Positions 1,421-11,369 of a stretch of 11,369 nucleotides of DNA are shown here, piece by piece. A model generated the notes under the pieces. The model ran no database searches and was not told where the DNA came from. It was given only the letters and a program-made list of their open reading frames with translations. A program made the position numbers and the translations under genes. Numbering within the stretch: the stretch's first letter is position 1; every line of letters starts with the position of its first letter. The DNA is from a bacterium (GTDB lineage Bacteria; UBP15; UBA6099; DSWB01). The DNA lies in assembly GCA_020061125.1 (NCBI GenBank), contig JAGUYV010000279.1, positions 1 through 11,369 on the forward strand, read 5' to 3'.

Positions 1421-4400
1421 ATGACGAAGATGCAATTATGGAAGCGCAGATTTGCATTCCTGTGGTTGTCATCCGCTAAGATATTGATTTATGTGTGCTT
1501 GTCCACCATGGTCTTCTGCCTTGACACTCCGCTTCTCGCCGATGAATACGACAAGTGCGTTGCCTTAATACAGGAAGGCGCCGCCGCGTACGAGAGCGCA
1601 AACTATCACAAGGCCATTGACGAATATTCGCAAGCGCATGATTGCATACTGGCCTTCAACGGCGGTGAAGAAACCGCAGACACAGCTGTCTTGCTCAACA
1701 AAATCGGTACAGCCAATTACTCCATCGGGGATTATGACCGCGCCATTGAGTACTTTGAAAAGGCGTTGAAAATCGGGATATCGGTTTATGGCGAACAGAA
1801 CGCTGATGTGGCCGTTCGCTACAACAACATCGGCATGGTCTATAAATCCCGCGGGGATTACGACCGCGCCATTGAGTTCTATGATAAAGCCCTCAAGATC
1901 GTTCTGGCGGTCTATGGCGAGCATCACCCCGATGTGGCCTCATACTACAACAACCTCGGCACGGTCCATAAAGCCCGCGGGGATTACGACCGCGCCATCG
2001 AGTTCTATGATAAGGCCCTGAAGATCGATCTGACGGTCAATGGCGAACAGTACGCTGGTGTGGCCATTCGCTACAACAACATCGGCATGGTCTATAAAGC
2101 CCGCGGGGATTATGACCGCGCCATCGAGTTCTATAAAAAGGCGGTGAATATCGGTCTGGCGGTCTATGGCGGACATCACCCCGATGTGGCCTATTACTAC
2201 AACAACATAGCCGGAGTTTATAAAGACCGCGGGGATTATAGCCGCGCTCTTGAGTTCTATGAAAAGGCCCTCAAGATCGATCTGGCGGTCTACGGCGAAC
2301 AGCACCCCGATGTGGCCGTTAGATACAACAATATCGGCACAGTGTATAAAGACCACGGGGATTATGACCGGGCTATCGAGTTCTATGATAAGGCCCTGAA
2401 AATTATGTTGGTTGTATATGGTGAGCAGCATCCAACCACGGCAATAAGTTACAACAACATCGGCCAAGTCTATGAAAACCGCGGGGATTATGACCGCGCC
2501 ATCGAGTTCTATGAAAAGGCTCTGAACATCGATCTGGCGGTCTATGGAGAGCAACATGTATCCACGGCTACGAACTACACTAACATCGGCTCTGTACATG
2601 ACTCTAGAGGGGATTATGACCGCGCCATCGAGTTCTATGAAAAGGCCCTGAATATCGATCTGGCGGTCTTTGGCGAGCATCACCCCTATGTGGCCAGTGA
2701 CTACAACAACATTGGCGGAGTCTATGACTCTCGGGGGGATTACGACCGCGCCATCGAGTTTCATGAAAAGGCACTCCGAGCATTATGCAATGGCGCCGAG
2801 ACACCAGATGCCGCTGATTGCCGCCCCGACGCGGACACTCTTTATGCTTTCCGGCGCATTGCGCAAGCCTACGACTCTACTGGCAATCCGGCGGCAGCGG
2901 CCGCAGCTTATGAGAAAGCGGCCGCGGCCCTGGAACGGTTGCGCGGCAACATTGAATCCCAAGAAGCCAAGACCTTCCACAGCAGTGAATACTACGAACT
3001 GTTCCCCGAGGGTCTCGGTGCGTTCGCAGCCCTTTATCAAGACGCTGGGGACAAGACCGTGCTTGAACGCGCCTTCTCTTTCGCAGAGAAGGGAATTGGG
3101 CGGGTCTTCCTCGAAATGATAGGGCGCAGCCGGGCCATCGTAGACGGGGGCCTTCCCCCTGATGTCGTCAATGAGGGGCTCAATCTCAAGGCCCGGCTAC
3201 AGGTTGCACGGGACAGAATCAATTCAGAGGAAACCAAGCCAAAGGACGAGCAGAGACAGGATCTTCGAAAACTGGCCTATGACGACTTCAACCATGCGGA
3301 AACGGACCTTGAAGCCTACGAGACAAGGCTGCTCAAGGAATACCCAAATTACGCAGAGCTCATGAACCCGCAGGTGCGGTCGCTTGATGAGATCCGGTCG
3401 AAAGTCCTGTCGCCGGGAGAAGCGGCTTTGGAATATGTAGTGGGCGAGAAAGCCTCATGGCTCATCTTTATTAAAAAGGACGGCATCAGCATCCACCAGC
3501 TTCCGCCTCGGGAGGAAATCACAGACAAGGTGAACCGATTGCGGTATTTTATCATGCCCGAGGACTGCTCCTACCTCGCGTCCAAGAAGAAACAGTGCGA
3601 AAGCACCGCAAAGGATTCGGGAGCAGAATGCAGAGAAATACGCAGCCAGGCGGTTTCTTGTGCATCAGGCAGGGACAAATGCACAACCATGGGCAAAGTG
3701 TGTCTCGAACAGCTGCGGGCCTCGTTCGATGGCCAGCGCAAGGCCCTCGCCGCGGAGCTTCACAGCATGCTGTTGGGGCCGGTGGAGTCCGAACTCGAAG
3801 GCGTCGGCAGGCTTCTCATCGTGCCCACCGGCGACCTTTACTTTCTTCCGTTTGAAGTCCTGATTGAAGACGGTGAGTATCTTATAGAGAAGTATGACAT
3901 CCGATACACCCCGAGCCTGAATGTGGCCTATCTCGTGGCGATGCGCGCAGCACAGGACAGCGCCATGGGCGAGTGGATGGGCTTTGGCGACCCGCTCTAT
4001 GACAAGAAATGCGACGACCGCGTCCCCCGCGGCATGGAAATGGATGAAGACACCGCAAACGCCCTTGCCAACTACACCCGCGCCTTGGAAGCAGACATTG
4101 ATCTCAGGGGTGCGTGGTGCCGCATACCGGATACCGGCAAGGAGATCCTTGCCATTGCAGGTCTCATGGGGTTCGACAGGTCCAGCGGCCATGTGTTTCT
4201 TGATCAGGACGCAACCGAGAAACTCTTCAAATTGCATGTGCCAAAAGGGACCCGCTTCCTGCATGTGGCCAGCCACGGCACCCTCGGCGAGGGGGGCGCC
4301 CGGCAACCGGCGCTGGTTTTAAGTCTGTACGGTAACGAGGGTTCCAAGGAAGACGGCTTCCTCACCATGACCGAAGTCTTCAACATGAAAACGCCCGCCG

Positions 4401-4690
4401 AGATGGTGGTGTTGAGCGCGTGCAAGACTGGCCAGGGACAGATGGAGAAGGGAGAAGGCGTTGCCGGCATGAGCCGCGCTTTCCTCTACGCTGGGGCCGG
4501 CTCGCTCGTCGTCTCTCTGTGGTCCGTGGCTGACGAGGAGACCAAAGACCTCATGGTCCGCTTTTATGAAAAGATTCTAACCGGACAGGATCGGCAGGAG
4601 GCGCTAACCTTCACCAAGCGAGAGATGATCAAGCAGGGATTCGCCCCATATTACTGGGCACCCTTCATCTACATCGGCACAAACAACTGA
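1421..4690 (+). CDS. Exported TPR-CHAT protein (caspase-like protease domain)
   Basis: A 1089-residue protein. Residues 1-40 look like a signal peptide or membrane anchor: KRR at 8-10, a long hydrophobic stretch with one internal lysine (20), and PLLA before DE, so cleavage after Ala40 is likely. Residues about 60-500 are tetratricopeptide repeats of the 42-residue kinesin-light-chain type: nine close copies with GDY at 103, 145, 187, 229, 271, 313, 355, 397 and 439, plus a degenerate unit at each end. A helical linker (510-650) leads to a CHAT domain (about 650-1088) with LLIVPTGDLYFLPFE at 798-812 and the C14-type dyad His952 (HVASHGTL) and Cys1001 (VLSACKTG), followed by the typical AGMSRAFLYAGAGSLVVSLW. 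CHAT proteins are caspase/separase relatives; TPRs usually bind partners or regulate the protease. A six-cysteine insert at 716-761 interrupts the CHAT region. GGAGGG 6 bases before the ATG supports the start. The target is unknown. Confidence 0.93.
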   Translation: MTKMQLWKRRFAFLWLSSAKILIYVCLSTMVFCLDTPLLADEYDKCVALIQEGAAAYESANYHKAIDEYSQAHDCILAFNGGEETADTAVLLNKIGTANYSIGDYDRAIEYFEKALKIGISVYGEQNADVAVRYNNIGMVYKSRGDYDRAIEFYDKALKIVLAVYGEHHPDVASYYNNLGTVHKARGDYDRAIEFYDKALKIDLTVNGEQYAGVAIRYNNIGMVYKARGDYDRAIEFYKKAVNIGLAVYGGHHPDVAYYYNNIAGVYKDRGDYSRALEFYEKALKIDLAVYGEQHPDVAVRYNNIGTVYKDHGDYDRAIEFYDKALKIMLVVYGEQHPTTAISYNNIGQVYENRGDYDRAIEFYEKALNIDLAVYGEQHVSTATNYTNIGSVHDSRGDYDRAIEFYEKALNIDLAVFGEHHPYVASDYNNIGGVYDSRGDYDRAIEFHEKALRALCNGAETPDAADCRPDADTLYAFRRIAQAYDSTGNPAAAAAAYEKAAAALERLRGNIESQEAKTFHSSEYYELFPEGLGAFAALYQDAGDKTVLERAFSFAEKGIGRVFLEMIGRSRAIVDGGLPPDVVNEGLNLKARLQVARDRINSEETKPKDEQRQDLRKLAYDDFNHAETDLEAYETRLLKEYPNYAELMNPQVRSLDEIRSKVLSPGEAALEYVVGEKASWLIFIKKDGISIHQLPPREEITDKVNRLRYFIMPEDCSYLASKKKQCESTAKDSGAECREIRSQAVSCASGRDKCTTMGKVCLEQLRASFDGQRKALAAELHSMLLGPVESELEGVGRLLIVPTGDLYFLPFEVLIEDGEYLIEKYDIRYTPSLNVAYLVAMRAAQDSAMGEWMGFGDPLYDKKCDDRVPRGMEMDEDTANALANYTRALEADIDLRGAWCRIPDTGKEILAIAGLMGFDRSSGHVFLDQDATEKLFKLHVPKGTRFLHVASHGTLGEGGARQPALVLSLYGNEGSKEDGFLTMTEVFNMKTPAEMVVLSACKTGQGQMEKGEGVAGMSRAFLYAGAGSLVVSLWSVADEETKDLMVRFYEKILTGQDRQEALTFTKREMIKQGFAPYYWAPFIYIGTNN
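1727..2773 (+). repeat. 126-bp in-frame tandem repeat array encoding TPR units
   Basis: Nine copies of a 126-base (42-codon) unit lie head to tail inside the TPR-CHAT gene, eight whole periods plus a ninth partial unit. Copies share long exact stretches around the codons for GDYDRAIEFY; for example the 30 bases beginning at 2107, 2485 and 2611 are the same. Third-codon positions are conserved along with the amino acids. The period never slips across all nine copies. The middle of each unit (YGEQHPDVAVRYNNIG) varies more than the GDYDRAIEFYEKAL half. Confidence 0.9.
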
Positions 4691-5333: not shown

Positions 5334-6701
5334 CTATTGACCGGGCAGGCGTTCGATTTTGAAAGTTGCAGTGCGGTTTGTTTGTGACAGGGTTGCGGGT
5401 TGGGACAGGGTGAAAAACGGGCGCAGGGGAGCGTAGCCGGGGTCGAGCATGAAGGCTTTGACTTCGTGGATTTCATAGGAAACCCTGTCGGATCCGGCGA
5501 TGCGGAACGCTTCGATGTCCTCATATTTCACGCCGGGGGGCAGCTTGATGTTGGTGCGCGCCCAGCCCGAGAACGCCAGCAAGCCGTCGTCTCCCAGGAA
5601 CGGGACATCCTTGCCGGGGTTCGAGGAGAGCCAGCGCTTTTCGTTCTTGAGCTTGACTTCAAAGCTCAAGGTTTTTTCTCCGTTTAGATTGTTTGCGCGA
5701 TAGTCCACATACACATAGTCGCGCATGTCCGCGAGCTGGGCTGATGCGCGGTTGTATTTGGCGGCGGCCTTGTTTTCCGCGAACATCTCTTCGGAGGCAA
5801 TGCGGTGCATCCAGGGGAAGGCGTCCATGACGGCGTCTCGCGGCTTGTCCGCGCCCCAGGAGAAGATCACGGGTTCGGGCGCGGCGCGCACCGGGGTTTC
5901 GCCGTTCTGGTCGAAGTTGCCGTTGTCCGTGGAGCAGCGCAGAACGGGATGCCTTCCGATTTTGCGCCCCGTGAAATTTTTGGTGTTGTGTCCCTCTCCC
6001 TGGTACTGCTCGCTGACGATGTTTCCGGTGGCGTCGTCGAGGACCACGCGGTAGACCCACTCGATGTCGGTGATGCGGCCGTAGCGGCTCATGAGAATGG
6101 CGGGGTTGCGCCCGGTGCCGCCGTCCTCGTTGCTGAAAACCACATGGTACTCGATGGTGGTGTGTCCGTCCGCGGACCACGGCGCGCCCATGACGGCCAG
6201 GGTTATGTCGGAACCCTTTTCCGCAACCCGCTCGTAAATCCACGGCGCATGCTCGAAAAACCTGTAGCGCATGTCGTGCGGCAGAATGGTGCGCGCGATG
6301 ATTTCGTGGATGAGGACGCTGCCCGCGCGGGCGGGAGATATGTCCGGTTCGAGCGACAGGGTGAGGGTGTGATCTCCTTCTGGAATTGGGCCGAGGCATG
6401 CGGAATACTCCATGGGCTGCGGCCCGCCCGAAACCACAATGTGATTGGCGAATTGCCCGTCGAGGTCCGCGCGGAGAATCAGCCCGCGGTTGTCATGCGC
6501 GGCCCAATGGGTGTTTGGAGAGGACATGGTGAGGATCACGCAGGTTTCCCCGGCTTCGTTCACGGAAATTGGGAAATCCATGGAGCGCAGGGTGAAATCG
6601 AGCATGCCGAGCAGGCCGGACTCCTGCGCCGCGGCGGGCGCGGCGAGACGGACGGCGCACAACAGCACCATGCCGGCGATGCGGATTCCCAGGCGCTTCA
6701 C
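5334..6701 (-). CDS. Secreted protein of unknown function with conserved-looking SNEDGGT core
   Basis: About 455 residues. I do not recognise the family. A signal peptide is clear (VKRLGIRI, then a Leu/Val/Ala core, likely cleavage after AAA near residue 25). The middle looks like the functional core: IEYHVVFSNEDGGT (183-196), LMSRYGRITDIEWVY (203-217) and a Gly/His-rich QYQGEGHNTKNFTGRKIG from 232. The region from about 297 (WMHRIASEEMFAENKAAAKY) is helical; the last 120 residues (from YVYVDYR) look beta-rich. A GTG at 6707 overlaps the upstream stop, but the GTG at 6701 has GGAG five bases ahead of it and is preferred. It follows the saccharopine-dehydrogenase-like gene with a 2-base gap, so translation is probably coupled. 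A secreted polysaccharide- or lipid-related role is only a guess. Confidence 0.8.
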   Translation of the reverse strand: MKRLGIRIAGMVLLCAVRLAAPAAAQESGLLGMLDFTLRSMDFPISVNEAGETCVILTMSSPNTHWAAHDNRGLILRADLDGQFANHIVVSGGPQPMEYSACLGPIPEGDHTLTLSLEPDISPARAGSVLIHEIIARTILPHDMRYRFFEHAPWIYERVAEKGSDITLAVMGAPWSADGHTTIEYHVVFSNEDGGTGRNPAILMSRYGRITDIEWVYRVVLDDATGNIVSEQYQGEGHNTKNFTGRKIGRHPVLRCSTDNGNFDQNGETPVRAAPEPVIFSWGADKPRDAVMDAFPWMHRIASEEMFAENKAAAKYNRASAQLADMRDYVYVDYRANNLNGEKTLSFEVKLKNEKRWLSSNPGKDVPFLGDDGLLAFSGWARTNIKLPPGVKYEDIEAFRIAGSDRVSYEIHEVKAFMLDPGYAPLRPFFTLSQPATLSQTNRTATFKIERLPGQ

Positions 6702-6703
6702 GG

Positions 6704-7840
6704 TCACTCCACGGGTTTGGTCATGGCAATATCTTCATAACCCTGCAGGCCCTTTTCTTTCATGTACACGATGAATTTGCGGGGGTCCAGGCAGCCTTCG
6801 GGAGCGAACACGCCGCCCTGCGCCTTGTCTATGCGCAGTTCGCCTTTAATCAGCATCTGCGTGCCCACGGACAGGCTCAAGCCCGTGGCCTCGCGCATCT
6901 GACCCAAACCGCACAGGGTCTTGCGCACGGTTTTTCCGTCTTTCTTGCCCCACACATCCACGCGCACCGCGCCGTGCGCCGGGTCCTGGTCCGGGAACAG
7001 CTTGTTCGCAAGTTCCTCGATCTTCCACACGAACTTGACGGCGTTGTCCACTTTTTTGGGTGTGTCGAAAAGGTTCAGTTGCGAGGGAATCACGAACAGC
7101 TCCGCGCCCTTGCCGTAGCCCATGAAGAAGTTCACGGATTTGAGTTCAGGGATGAATTTCGGAACCGTGACGGGTTCCGCGTGGCCCATGTTCCAGACCT
7201 TGATGCGGCCGAACTCGGGGAATTCCACGGTGCGTTTTTCGCTGCATGCTTTAATCATTTCGAGGCGCCCGTCGCGCCACATCGCCACCTTGCCGCTCAT
7301 GATGAAGAACATGTGCTTGAACACGGCCGGGCCGCCGCCCGCATTCAGCGGCTGGAAAACATAAATGTTGGCCTCGGTTGGCTCGTCGAGCTGGTCGCAC
7401 AGGAAGCGGATGCCCACATTGGTGAAACCGGGGCTTGTGCCAAGGCCGGAGAGCACGAGCACGCCTTTGTCCCTGGCGGCCTGTCCGTATTTGTCCATGA
7501 CCTCCTGGGCCGCGTTCCATTCGTCGCACACGCTGGCGTAACAGGTGCCCGCATCCACGGCCGCGGCCACGAGTTTTGCCTCGAAGCGGTGAAAGGGACC
7601 CAGTGCGGACGCCGCGGCGTCGTAGCCCTTCATGGCGTCCACCAGAGCGCCGTGGTCGTTGGCGTCCACGATTTTCACATCCACCGCGGCCTGCGCGCCC
7701 GCGCATGTCTGCGCCACGCGCTCCGCAGCTTCGGCGTTGGCGTCCGCTATGGTGACCCGTTCCACGCCCGGCGTGGACGCCAGGTCCTCCACGCACCGGC
7801 TGCCCACATCTCCCGCGCCGCCCATGACGATGATTTTCAT
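6704..7840 (-). CDS. Saccharopine-dehydrogenase-like NAD(P)-dependent oxidoreductase
   Basis: A 378-residue cytoplasmic enzyme of the saccharopine dehydrogenase / lysine-ketoglutarate reductase fold. The N-terminal Rossmann fold shows MKIIVMGGAGDVGS (GxGxxG-type loop at 7-13) and an acidic pair at the end of strand two (ADAN, Asp33), which favours NAD over NADP. GTSPGFTN at 134-141 is the segment typical of this family at the start of the substrate domain, and REATGLSLSVGTQMLIKGEL (316-335) fits its C-terminal closing part. Substrate is not predictable: the family includes many enzymes that do not act on saccharopine. An ATG at 7849 is only one base from the GGAGG site, whereas the ATG at 7840 lies 10 bases from it and starts directly with the Rossmann strand, so 7840 was chosen. 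First gene of a two-gene operon with the unknown secreted protein. Confidence 0.85.
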   Translation of the reverse strand: MKIIVMGGAGDVGSRCVEDLASTPGVERVTIADANAEAAERVAQTCAGAQAAVDVKIVDANDHGALVDAMKGYDAAASALGPFHRFEAKLVAAAVDAGTCYASVCDEWNAAQEVMDKYGQAARDKGVLVLSGLGTSPGFTNVGIRFLCDQLDEPTEANIYVFQPLNAGGGPAVFKHMFFIMSGKVAMWRDGRLEMIKACSEKRTVEFPEFGRIKVWNMGHAEPVTVPKFIPELKSVNFFMGYGKGAELFVIPSQLNLFDTPKKVDNAVKFVWKIEELANKLFPDQDPAHGAVRVDVWGKKDGKTVRKTLCGLGQMREATGLSLSVGTQMLIKGELRIDKAQGGVFAPEGCLDPRKFIVYMKEKGLQGYEDIAMTKPVE

Positions 7841-8204: not shown

Positions 8205-8756
8205 ATGCATCTCAAAGGCTGCATTCACACACACACCACCTGCTCGGACGGCAAGCTCACGCCCCAGGAAGTTGCCGATGTGTACGCGGCGCTCGGGTAT
8301 GACTTCATCGCGTTCACGGATCACGACTATCTTCTGAAACACGACCACCAGTTGCTGTACGACAGCGTCAAGTCCGATCTCATCATTTTCCACGGAATCG
8401 AGCACACGGTTTTCGAGAAAGGCTATGTGCATGTGGGGCATATCTGGGGCGTGCGCGAGGAGTTGTATGTGCTGAATCACCTGGGCGAATACGATCTCAC
8501 CTACGAGCAGGTCAAGGAACGCATCGCGGGCGTGGCCGAGCGCTATCCCCTGCACGCCGTGGAGATCACCACAAAAGGCTTTCCCGAAAAGGAATTCGAT
8601 GTGGACGACATCGGGTATCCGCGCATCGCCAGCGACGACTCGCACACGCGCATCGGCTGCGGCCGCGCGTGGATCGAGATGGACTGCAAACGCGACCCGG
8701 ACGAAATCATCAAAGCCATCAAGGCAGGTTTCTTCTGGAACTGCTACGCGAAGTGA
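8205..8756 (+). CDS. PHP-domain metal-dependent hydrolase
   Basis: A compact 183-residue PHP (polymerase and histidinol phosphatase) domain protein, probably a cytoplasmic phosphoesterase using two or three metal ions. The PHP motifs appear in order: HTHTTCSDG (His8, His10, Asp15), FTDHD (Asp39, His40), GIEH (Glu66), HVGH (His76, His79) and ASDDSH (Asp144, Asp145, His147). No polymerase, AMP-binding or other domain is attached, and it is shorter than many stand-alone PHP enzymes (about 220-290 residues), so it is close to the minimal fold. Substrate unknown. The ATG has no clear Shine-Dalgarno; an in-frame stop near 8157 with no other ATG, GTG or TTG between fixes the start. It is monocistronic, with repeat debris on both sides. 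Confidence 0.88.
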   Translation: MHLKGCIHTHTTCSDGKLTPQEVADVYAALGYDFIAFTDHDYLLKHDHQLLYDSVKSDLIIFHGIEHTVFEKGYVHVGHIWGVREELYVLNHLGEYDLTYEQVKERIAGVAERYPLHAVEITTKGFPEKEFDVDDIGYPRIASDDSHTRIGCGRAWIEMDCKRDPDEIIKAIKAGFFWNCYAK

Positions 8757-9142: not shown

Positions 9143-10285
9143 ATGGCGAATCGCGTTGCCATTTGCGCCGTGGCGCAGTTGCCGTTCGAGTCCAACAAAT
9201 GGACCAAGCGGTTTCAGGAGATGTGCTTCGATGTTGTGGAGCCTATTCTGAAACAGACCGGCGTCACTTTTGACATGGAGAAGGGAATACGGAATGTGGT
9301 GACCTGCTCGGACGATGTGTTCGACGCGCGCACCATTTCCGATAACGGCATCACCGACGCCGTGGGCGCTCACTACCGCGGCGAGGAGAAAGTGGCCATG
9401 GACGGGCTGAACGCGCTGGGCTACGGCATGGCGTGCATCCTGTCCGGGCACGACGAAGTCACACTGGTCGTGGGGCACTGCAAGGAAAGCCAGAGCGAAA
9501 GCCGCAACATGTGCACGAACCTGGCGTACGATCCCTTCTACTGCCGGCCCCTGGGACTGGATTTCATGAGCGCGGCGGCCATGCAGGCGCGCGCGTACAT
9601 GGACAAGTCCGGCCTCACCGAAGCGCAACTCGCGCAGGTCGTGGTCAACGCCCGCAAAAACGCGGCCAAAAACCCCTTCGCAAACGCCAAGGCCCCGGTC
9701 ACCGCAGACGATGTGCTCAAGTCCGAACTCGTGTGCGACCCTCTGCGCGCGCTGCATGTGTACCCGGTGTCCGACGGCGCTGTCGCGTTCCTGCTCTGCA
9801 ACGAGGAGCGGGTCAAGGAATTCACCGACAATCCCGTGTGGCTCACAGGCTTCGGCAACAACATGCACAGCTATTTCCTGGGGGACAGGGATCTGGCGGA
9901 TGTGTCGAATCTGCAGCGGGCTGCGGCGCGCGCATACAAGATGGCGGGCGTCAAGGATCCGGCGTCGGAATTCGATCTCTACGAAATCTGCGATCCGTAC
10001 GCGTATCAGTTGCCCATGTGGCTTGAGGGCCTGGGCGTGTGCGACAGCGGCCCCGCGTTCATTGACGGCGGGGGACTCGAAAAGAAAAAGGTGAACCTGT
10101 CCGGCGGCATGCTGGCGGGCAATCCCATCATGATCGGCGGCCTGGCCCGGGCCGCCGAGGCCGTGCTGCAACTGCGCGGCGAAGCGGGCGAACGCCAGGT
10201 CGAAGGCGCGAAAAAAGCTCTGGCCCACAGCACCACCGGCGGGGCCGGCCAATTCCAATCCGTTCTCGTCATCGAGAAGGACTGA
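9143..10285 (+). CDS. Thiolase-fold protein, SCP2-like, lacking usual catalytic residues
   Basis: A 380-residue thiolase-superfamily protein, the length of a full thiolase. Family marks: LNALGYGMACILSGHDEVTLVVG (89-111, the helix after the nucleophile loop), PVSDGAVA (208-215), YEICDPYAYQ with EGLGVC (280-300), VNLSGGMLAGNP (317-328) and HSTTGGAG (362-369). Hand alignment puts Ala85 where the nucleophilic cysteine should be, Asn327 where GHP has its histidine, and Ser363 near the second cysteine. Cys283 occupies the place of the HD motif histidine in SCP2-type thiolases and might substitute. It could form a complex with the next protein, as with thiolase-fold proteins that need a DUF35 OB-fold partner. 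AAAGGAGGTG 8 bases ahead fixes the start. First gene of the operon; chemistry not assigned. Confidence 0.85.
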   Translation: MANRVAICAVAQLPFESNKWTKRFQEMCFDVVEPILKQTGVTFDMEKGIRNVVTCSDDVFDARTISDNGITDAVGAHYRGEEKVAMDGLNALGYGMACILSGHDEVTLVVGHCKESQSESRNMCTNLAYDPFYCRPLGLDFMSAAAMQARAYMDKSGLTEAQLAQVVVNARKNAAKNPFANAKAPVTADDVLKSELVCDPLRALHVYPVSDGAVAFLLCNEERVKEFTDNPVWLTGFGNNMHSYFLGDRDLADVSNLQRAAARAYKMAGVKDPASEFDLYEICDPYAYQLPMWLEGLGVCDSGPAFIDGGGLEKKKVNLSGGMLAGNPIMIGGLARAAEAVLQLRGEAGERQVEGAKKALAHSTTGGAGQFQSVLVIEKD

Positions 10286-10301
10286 CCCGGGAGGTCCCAC
10301 C

Positions 10302-11369
10302 ATGAGCCACAAGAAAAACAGACATGTGGGCATCATCGGCATCGGCCAGAGCCAGTACTCCAGCCACCGCGAAGAAGTCAACCAGCCCGAAATGATCCAT
10401 GAAGCCATTGTCAAATGCCTCAAGGACGCCGGGCTGACCATGGACGACATTGACTGCGTGGTGCACGGGAACATGGAACTGTTCGAGATGGTGCACCAGC
10501 CGGACCTGTGGCACACCATTGGCTCCGGCGCATTCGGCAAGGACGAGTTTCGCATCACCACCGGCGGCACAACGGGCGCAACCCTGGTCTGCGCGGCCGA
10601 CAACCTCGTGGCCTCGGGCATGTACGATGTGGTCCTGGCCGTGGGATTTGAAAAGCTGCAGGAAGGGCACACCACCGGCGGCATCACCAACATGGCCGAC
10701 CCGCTCTGGGGCCGCAGCCTGCAGACCGGCGCGCTCACCGGCGCCACGGCCGCGGATATCATCGAGAACTTTGGCGAAGACCGCGCACGCCGCGCCGCCA
10801 TGAAGCTGCGCATCCAGATGGACAAGCACGCGTGCCTCAACCCGAACTCGCACCGCAGCTTCGGCCTCTCCGACGATCAGCTTGAAGACCTGGTGCAGAA
10901 CTCGCCGCCGCTGGTCGGCGACCTGCGCCTCATCCACATGTGCTCCCAGAGCGACGGCGCCTGCGCCATGATTTTCGCCTGCGAGGAAAAGGCCAAGCAA
11001 TTCAGCAAGAAACCGGTCTGGATCCGCGATCATGTGACCATCCACCGCGAGGAAACCTTCACCATGTTTCCGGCCGAGGAAAAGGATCGCGACCCGGTCA
11101 CGCAGCGTGTGGCCGCGGAAACGCTCTTCAAACGCAACGGCATTGACAATCCGGTCGAGTACTTCGATGTGTTCGAAATGTACGACCCCTCGTCCTGGTG
11201 GGGCCTGGACTGGCTCAAGGAGTTCTTCCTGCTCGATGGGGACGGGCACCTCAAGATGGTGGAGAACGGCGACATCGCCATCGGCGGCAAGATCCCGATG
11301 AACCCCTCGGGCGGCGTTGTGGCGGCCAACCCCATCGGCGCAACCGCCATGGTGCGCGTGGCCGAAGCC
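10302..11369 (+). CDS. Second thiolase-fold protein, 3' end cut by window
   Basis: The open frame runs from the ATG to the last base (356 codons so far, no stop), so only the C-terminal end is missing. It begins 16 bases after the previous stop with GGGAGG 7 bases ahead, clearly the same operon. Thiolase marks: ITTGGTTGATL (85-95) before ASGMYDVVLAVGFEKL (104-119), SQSDGACA (215-222), FEMYDPSSWW (291-300) and GGKIPMNPSGGVVAANPIGA (328-347). The nucleophile position holds Gly89 (TTGGTTG instead of a CxSG-type loop), and NPIGA replaces GHPxGA, so the usual Cys and His are absent. The TTGG-T-TGG-like loop resembles the thiolase-like proteins found with DUF35 partners. It is a distant paralogue of its neighbour, which suggests a heteromeric complex. 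Substrate unknown. Confidence 0.85.
   Translation, partial: MSHKKNRHVGIIGIGQSQYSSHREEVNQPEMIHEAIVKCLKDAGLTMDDIDCVVHGNMELFEMVHQPDLWHTIGSGAFGKDEFRITTGGTTGATLVCAADNLVASGMYDVVLAVGFEKLQEGHTTGGITNMADPLWGRSLQTGALTGATAADIIENFGEDRARRAAMKLRIQMDKHACLNPNSHRSFGLSDDQLEDLVQNSPPLVGDLRLIHMCSQSDGACAMIFACEEKAKQFSKKPVWIRDHVTIHREETFTMFPAEEKDRDPVTQRVAAETLFKRNGIDNPVEYFDVFEMYDPSSWWGLDWLKEFFLLDGDGHLKMVENGDIAIGGKIPMNPSGGVVAANPIGATAMVRVAEA

Follow-up and report, generated by a model that had tools for sequence, protein, structure and literature searches.

Cysteine-less thiolase-fold proteins encoded in tandem beside DUF35 genes in a UBP15 bacterium: probable subunits of a heteromeric retro-aldolase

A tandem gene pair and its active-site positions

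The window analysed here is the whole 11,369-nucleotide stretch of contig JAGUYV010000279.1 (C68), a complete contig of a draft bacterial genome (GCA_020061125.1, lineage UBP15; 4.1 Mb, 79% complete). At the end of the contig lie two co-directional genes, separated by 16 bp, which encode the thiolase-fold proteins that we refer to as A and B. A check of the open reading frames gave the same positions for both as an earlier note on this DNA, which had been made from the sequence alone. The frame of B is open at the contig end and yields 356 amino acids, as against approximately 398 in orthologues. The two genes and the residues discussed below are located as follows.

9143..10285, + strand: protein A, thiolase fold, A-type (Ltp4-like) clade, complete open reading frame of 380 amino acids; predicted partner subunit with a short nucleophile loop, canonical catalytic residues absent
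9404..9406, + strand: Gly88 of A, column of the nucleophilic cysteine, followed by a three-residue deletion (alignment and DSSP of the A model)
9989..9991, + strand: Cys283 of A, column of the HDCF histidine and the aldolase tyrosine; not conserved (cysteine in 9/74 orthologues)
10121..10123, + strand: Asn327 of A, column of the GHP histidine (alignment)
10302..11369, + strand: protein B, thiolase fold, B-type (Ltp3-like) clade, 356 amino acids in the window; predicted catalytic aldolase subunit
10566..10568, + strand: Gly89 of B, column of the nucleophilic cysteine, equivalent to Gly89 of CtSal and Gly83 of TcLtp2; Gly in 26/26 B-type proteins
11181..11183, + strand: Tyr294 of B, column of the HDCF histidine, equivalent to the base tyrosine of the aldolases (CtSal Tyr302, TcLtp2 Tyr294; PMC12329534); Tyr in all 26 B-type proteins
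11187..11189, + strand: Pro296 of B, column of CtSal Cys304 and TcLtp2 His296; Pro in 23/26 B-type proteins
11328..11330, + strand: Asn343 of B, column of the GHP histidine, CtSal Gln352 and TcLtp2 Tyr344; Asn in 26/26 B-type proteins

Comparison with Pfam, NCBIfam and the Protein Data Bank (PDB) identifies both proteins as SCP2/thiolase-like. The Pfam family Thiolase_C_1 (cut-off 28 bits) is matched by A at 87.1 and by B at 43.1 bits, while the score for Thiolase_N (cut-off 26.4 bits) is above threshold in B (29.4) and below it in A (20.4). AlphaFold models display the thiolase fold, with predicted local distance difference test scores of 91.9 for A and 85.3 for B, the latter modelled on the intact orthologue L035_B, which is 81% identical to window B. 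The top VIA-align match of each model is 6esq, an archaeal acetoacetyl-CoA (coenzyme A) thiolase (A: Z 49.4, 371 aligned, root mean square deviation 2.2; B: Z 48.4, 375 aligned, 2.6). A and B thus have the fold of SCP2-type thiolases; they lack the nucleophilic cysteine and the histidines of the HDCF and GHP motifs.

These assignments come from an alignment of A, B and their relatives with cysteine thiolases and with two thiolase-fold aldolases, TcLtp2 and CtSal, whose sequences were taken from PDB alignments. The mapping of the columns is checked, since the alignment recovers the published residue numbers (Tyr294 and Tyr344 in TcLtp2; Gly89, Tyr302, Cys304 and Gln352 in CtSal). Where cysteine thiolases carry Cys, His, Cys or Ala, and His, A has Gly88, Cys283, Pro285 and Asn327, and B has Gly89, Tyr294, Pro296 and Asn343. 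The earlier note had reported, from an alignment made by eye, that the nucleophilic cysteine and the GHP histidine are changed in both proteins; this is borne out, and the HDCF histidine has gone too. It had placed Gly89 of B and Asn327 of A correctly and had put the cysteine column of A at Ala85, three residues off. In the A model strand Nb3 spans residues 80–85 and helix Na3 begins at 88 and runs to 100, the nucleophile loop being three residues shorter, so that the column falls on Gly88; Ala85, which lies in the strand, was rejected. A further fold mark that had been ascribed to both proteins, NPSGG, is present in B, and A reads LSGG at this point.

We then compared 26 B-type proteins from Actinobacteria, Beta- and 'Deltaproteobacteria', Spirochaetota and further phyla. 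Gly, Tyr and Asn are invariant, proline is found in all but three, and many more residues around the site are invariant over several phyla. Conservation across such distances indicates that the residues of B are not there by chance. Gly replaces the cysteine in CtSal and TcLtp2 as well; the Y302F change abolishes CtSal activity, and the equivalent tyrosine of TcLtp2 is the catalytic base (PMC12329534). In 22 A-type proteins, the tyrosine column is occupied by nine different residues. The earlier description of two inactive-looking subunits therefore suits A, which is variable at the catalytic positions, and does not suit B, which has the invariant Tyr294 and Gly89 seen in aldolases. Taken by itself, A may be a subunit without catalytic function.

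Two other explanations can be weighed against these columns. A thiolase or acyl-transferase with a different nucleophile, such as Cys283 of A, which does stand in the active-site motif, is hardly credible, because orthologues seldom keep this cysteine and have Ser, Asn, Met, Lys and others in its place. The earlier note had also singled out Cys98 of A and Cys97 of B as cysteines that might prove to occupy the catalytic site. Both lie well inside helix Na3 (residues 91–104 in the B model) and are retained in 21/74 and 65/87 orthologues, respectively; a thiolase with its cysteine shifted to either position was rejected, given this location and the poor conservation. Alternatively, A and B might both be pseudo-enzymes, a non-catalytic scaffold joining the DUF35, SCP2 and hydratase proteins described below. 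The loss of every known acid residue and the variability of A would agree with such a role, but B keeps Gly, Tyr and Asn and the further invariant residues near the site, and a scaffold would need no invariant tyrosine in that column; we regard this explanation as very unlikely. Of the two possibilities raised in the earlier note, different chemistry or a scaffold, a chemistry other than thiolysis is thus upheld, and it is improbable that the pair serves purely as a scaffold.

Strict pairing and the DUF35 partners

B follows A in all 78 family loci with a complete A gene, with a typical spacing of 8–28 bp. An IQ-TREE phylogeny was built from 65 proteins, Sal not among them, and the A and B rows were told apart beforehand by BLAST score and gene position. 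In this tree the A-types and the B-types each form one clade (support 100/99), apart from the cysteine thiolases and Ltp2. Both clades include members of actinobacterial tandems from Streptomyces, Tsukamurella and Nonomuraea. Pairwise distances among A and among B proteins are correlated over 22 pairs (Mantel r 0.75); none of 5000 permutations reached this value, the maximum being 0.36. Several spirochaete and 'Deltaproteobacteria' loci (L036 at 17017–19341, L045, L047, L055, L065, L070 and L074) have a second, more distant A–B pair (A approximately 42% and B approximately 39% identical) beside further DUF35 genes, some 7–10 kb downstream of the first.

A DUF35 gene just downstream, which the earlier note had proposed to look for, turned up in this genome on C372, a contig that apparently adjoins the window. 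The end of this contig starts with VLTMLEKDLDW and a stop codon, exactly the 11 C-terminal residues of the L035 B protein. These are followed by genes for a 386-residue and a 150-residue protein. In the first, two SCP2 domains are accompanied by a DUF35 zinc ribbon that scores 20.4 bits, just below the cut-off of 23.2, with an OB fold below Pfam detection; the second has a DUF35 OB fold (65.1 bits, cut-off 27.1). The same gene order, SCP2-SCP2-DUF35 and then DUF35, is found in relatives. The zinc ribbon of the SCP2-fused protein reads CPEC...CAVC, and that of the second DUF35 protein (L005 1450–1899, − strand) reads CKKC...CERD, with three cysteines and an aspartate for the fourth. The zinc site of CtShy is also unusual, being of the C3H1 type (PMC12329534).

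The two C372 genes supply the DUF35 partner that characterizes the Ltp2 and Sal aldolases. Moreover, the presence of as many DUF35 modules as thiolase-fold subunits, two of each, fits the alpha-beta-beta-alpha layout of CtSal–Shy, in which Shy contributes the DUF35 domain. By analogy, an A–B dimer may take the place of the central homodimer in this layout, with a DUF35 module on either side.

A proposed reaction and its genomic setting

The two genes after B encode SCP2-DUF35 and DUF35 proteins in 51 family loci, and ligase-SCP2-DUF35 and DUF35-MaoC fusions in 16, these domains having been confirmed by Pfam on representatives. The MaoC part of the latter fusion keeps the hydratase motif GDFNPMH. 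Its domain order is the same as in Shy, a hydratase with DUF35 first and MaoC second, which binds the Sal aldolase via its DUF35 domain (PMC11321319). Common neighbours of the family loci are acyl-CoA dehydrogenases, AMP-ligases, enoyl-CoA hydratases and CoA-transferases, and the succession of ligase, dehydrogenase, hydratase and aldolase corresponds to an aldolytic beta-oxidation. The hosts are Desulfobacterales, Spirochaetota, Syntrophaceae and UBP15-like bacteria, and include two completely sequenced strains, Desulfosarcina alkanivorans PL12 and D. widdelii PP31.

Taken together, the loss of the thiolase nucleophile, the glycine and invariant tyrosine of B as in Ltp2 and Sal, the degenerate state of A, the strict A–B pairing and the two adjoining DUF35 modules suggest that A and B are likely to be the two subunits of a heteromeric thiolase-fold carbon–carbon lyase, that is, a retro-aldolase, as has been proposed for the actinobacterial Ltp3–Ltp4. 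From these sequence features we infer that B would be the catalytic subunit of a DUF35-bridged complex and A a pseudo-subunit, perhaps structural or substrate-shaping. An acyl-CoA ligase, an acyl-CoA dehydrogenase and a hydratase would supply a beta-hydroxyacyl-CoA to the A–B dimer flanked by its DUF35 modules, and the bulky part of this substrate would be held with the help of SCP2/DUF35, the SCP2 domains gripping the hydrophobic acyl group. Tyr294 of B could then act as the base and take the proton of the beta-hydroxyl, so that cleavage of the C-alpha/C-beta bond would leave a ketone or aldehyde and an acyl-CoA enolate. Finally, the enolate would be protonated by a residue other than the known acids, possibly one from A or one specific to B. 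The substrate is more probably a bulky, branched or polycyclic acyl-CoA than a straight-chain one.

The same complex might instead run in reverse, with an acyl-CoA enolate and a ketone or aldehyde joined in an aldol-type carbon–carbon bond formation of biosynthetic or carbonyl-fixing purpose. The chemistry is reversible, and the DUF35-partnered thiolase-fold proteins among the structural matches include the synthetic PhlABC and HMG-CoA (3-hydroxy-3-methylglutaryl-CoA) synthase complexes. The neighbouring genes, however, with their acyl-CoA dehydrogenases, AMP-ligases, enoyl-CoA and MaoC hydratases and CoA-transferases, form a degradative set, and we consider the synthetic direction unlikely.

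Several observations weigh against assigning a retro-aldolase to this pair. The general acids of the characterized enzymes are absent from B, with Asn343 in place of TcLtp2 Tyr344 and Pro296 in place of CtSal Cys304, and a different proton donor would be needed. Nocardia Ltp2 falls outside the A and B clades, so that the shared tyrosine could be convergent. In the window cluster (C68 and C372) no MaoC hydratase or ligase lies alongside; such partners would need to be encoded elsewhere in the genome, where MaoC proteins do occur. The joining of C68 to C372 is itself deduced from sequence, and approximately 31 residues of B would fall in the gap. The function of Ltp3–Ltp4 rests on genetics cited in a review (PMC6678751), and our literature search found no biochemical paper on that pair. 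In the literature found, no A/B family member is credited with an activity, and a search combining DUF35, SCP2 and thiolase in Desulfo- organisms returned nothing.

It is possible, but decidedly more tentative than the retro-aldolase assignment itself, that the family forms an undescribed class, widespread in anaerobes, which is obligately heteromeric, keeps just the base tyrosine in one subunit, draws its proton either from the pseudo-subunit or from a donor at a novel position, is linked to ligase and hydratase through DUF35/SCP2 and acts on a non-steroid bulky acyl-CoA. If A and B are indeed a retro-aldolase, cysteine-less retro-aldol cleavage on the thiolase fold would not be confined to steroid degraders and would be shared as a conserved module by sulfate reducers, syntrophs, spirochaetes and candidate phyla, frequently with two copies per genome. 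The database labels 'acetyl-CoA acetyltransferase', 'thiolase' and 'lipid-transfer protein' would then imply the wrong reaction for the family. Since the pairing is strict and the active site is conserved in one member and degenerate in the other, the family lends itself to testing what a thiolase-fold pseudo-subunit does.

One further gene in the window probably belongs to the cluster.

8205..8756, + strand: PHP-domain protein of 183 amino acids, likely first gene of the cluster; found upstream of A in 44/66 family loci with room for it

The distance from this gene to A is 12–415 bp in relatives and 386 bp in the window; the protein resembles metal-dependent hydrolases and has no obvious role in acyl-CoA chemistry. 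Elsewhere in the window, 1421–4690 (+ strand) encodes a protein of 1089 residues that has a CHAT protease domain (210 bits; motifs HVASHG and SACKTG) at its C-terminus and contains numerous TPR (kinesin-light-chain-like) repeats of nearly identical sequence, and 5334–6707 (− strand) encodes a 457-residue protein with a signal-like N-terminus and no Pfam match at 1e-4. Two other loci of the same genome contain related genes. On contig C464 (L004), 853–2277 (− strand) encodes another cysteine-less thiolase-fold protein of 474 amino acids (KTGGATGG, HDAF, GCMHAVGA), which adjoins a zinc-ribbon/OB-like protein (230–1063, − strand) and forms a group with proteins of L027 and L021 that is separate from the A and B clades. 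On contig C308 (L003), an HMG-CoA synthase-like protein fused to DUF35 (8–1480) overlaps the start of a thiolase (1432–2694) of the cysteine type (VENYCATG, HDCF, GHP), a canonical counterpart in the same genome.

Comparison with known thiolase-fold systems

The earlier note had likened the pair to BbsAB and to the archaeal complex of thiolase, HMG-CoA synthase and DUF35 protein. These share the thiolase fold and a DUF35 partner with A and B, but BbsB (HDAF, GHP) and the archaeal thiolase 6esq (HDCF, GHA) keep the nucleophilic cysteine and both histidines, all of which are lost here. They are consequently not the nearest analogues; the actinobacterial Ltp4–Ltp3–DUF35 tandem, Sal–Shy and Ltp2–ChsH2 are nearer.

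The steroid aldolase TcLtp2–ChsH2(DUF35) (PDB 6ok1) resembles B in its fold (VIA-align Z 40.6), its glycine at the cysteine site and its base Tyr294. In contrast, its acid Tyr344 corresponds to Asn343 in B, its YDHF motif reads YDPS in B, and Ltp2 belongs to another clade. The bile-acid aldolase CtSal–Shy (PDB 9myr) likewise shares with B the glycine and the tyrosine at the HDCF histidine, and has an amide at the GHP position (Gln in CtSal, Asn in B); it also has a DUF35 partner, and the DUF35-MaoC architecture recurs in relatives of the window pair. However, CtSal is a homodimer with Cys304 as its acid, whereas a heteromer is predicted for the window pair, and B has Pro296 at that column. The glycine and catalytic tyrosine typical of Ltp2 and Sal are thus found in B and not in A. 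Filing the pair as Ltp2 or Sal was rejected, as the known acids are absent and Ltp2 lies in another clade.

The closest counterpart is the actinobacterial tandem, which its protein lengths and its order of DUF35, short thiolase and long thiolase suggest is Ltp4 plus Ltp3, of the Rv3521-Rv3522-Rv3523 type (gene names from PMC6429209). Ltp3–Ltp4 has been called a heteromeric aldol-lyase for C24-branched sterols (PMC6678751). As in the window, an A-type and a B-type gene stand in tandem beside two DUF35 modules, both proteins fall in the common clades, and the B-type protein shares the Gly-Tyr-Pro-Asn signature. By comparison, the window pair is approximately 30–35% identical and occurs in other phyla, mostly in anaerobes, with the PHP gene upstream. 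Its DUF35 modules are split between two proteins, and one module is fused to a pair of SCP2 domains, whereas the actinobacterial tandems have one protein of 299–339 amino acids with the OB domain matched twice. The two tandems scanned, from Streptomyces and Nonomuraea, score 694–713 bits with NCBIfam PRK08313 (389 positions, cut-off 514) and 495–550 bits with PRK07937 (353 positions, cut-off 419), all above cut-off. Window A reaches 177.2 bits with PRK07937 and window B 236.7 with PRK08313 (271.4 for the intact orthologue). With all scores below the cut-offs, assignment to these subfamilies was rejected, and A and B are relatives rather than members of them.

A special case of the retro-aldolase assignment, overlapping with it, would be a true steroid side-chain aldolase, an anaerobic Ltp3–Ltp4 acting on sterols or bile acids. 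The SCP2 domains, the Shy-like DUF35-MaoC fusion and the relationship to Ltp3 and Ltp4 all point in this direction. Against it, the scores fall short of the PRK cut-offs, and Desulfobacterales, Spirochaetota, Syntrophaceae and UBP15-like bacteria are not known as steroid degraders; overall this seems rather doubtful. Two acyl-CoA dehydrogenases of the Desulfosarcina cluster, checked for the steroid-specific type, gave no specific match.

Cysteine-less thiolase-fold aldolases with DUF35 partners are already known, and a two-gene version has been proposed in Actinobacteria. What is new is a wide, mostly anaerobic branch in which the B signature, lacking the known acid, stands beside a degenerate A, together with the SCP2-DUF35, ligase-SCP2-DUF35 and DUF35-MaoC fusions around the pair. 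If A and B do act as a heteromeric retro-aldolase, this would account for the requirement of Actinobacteria for ltp3 as well as ltp4.

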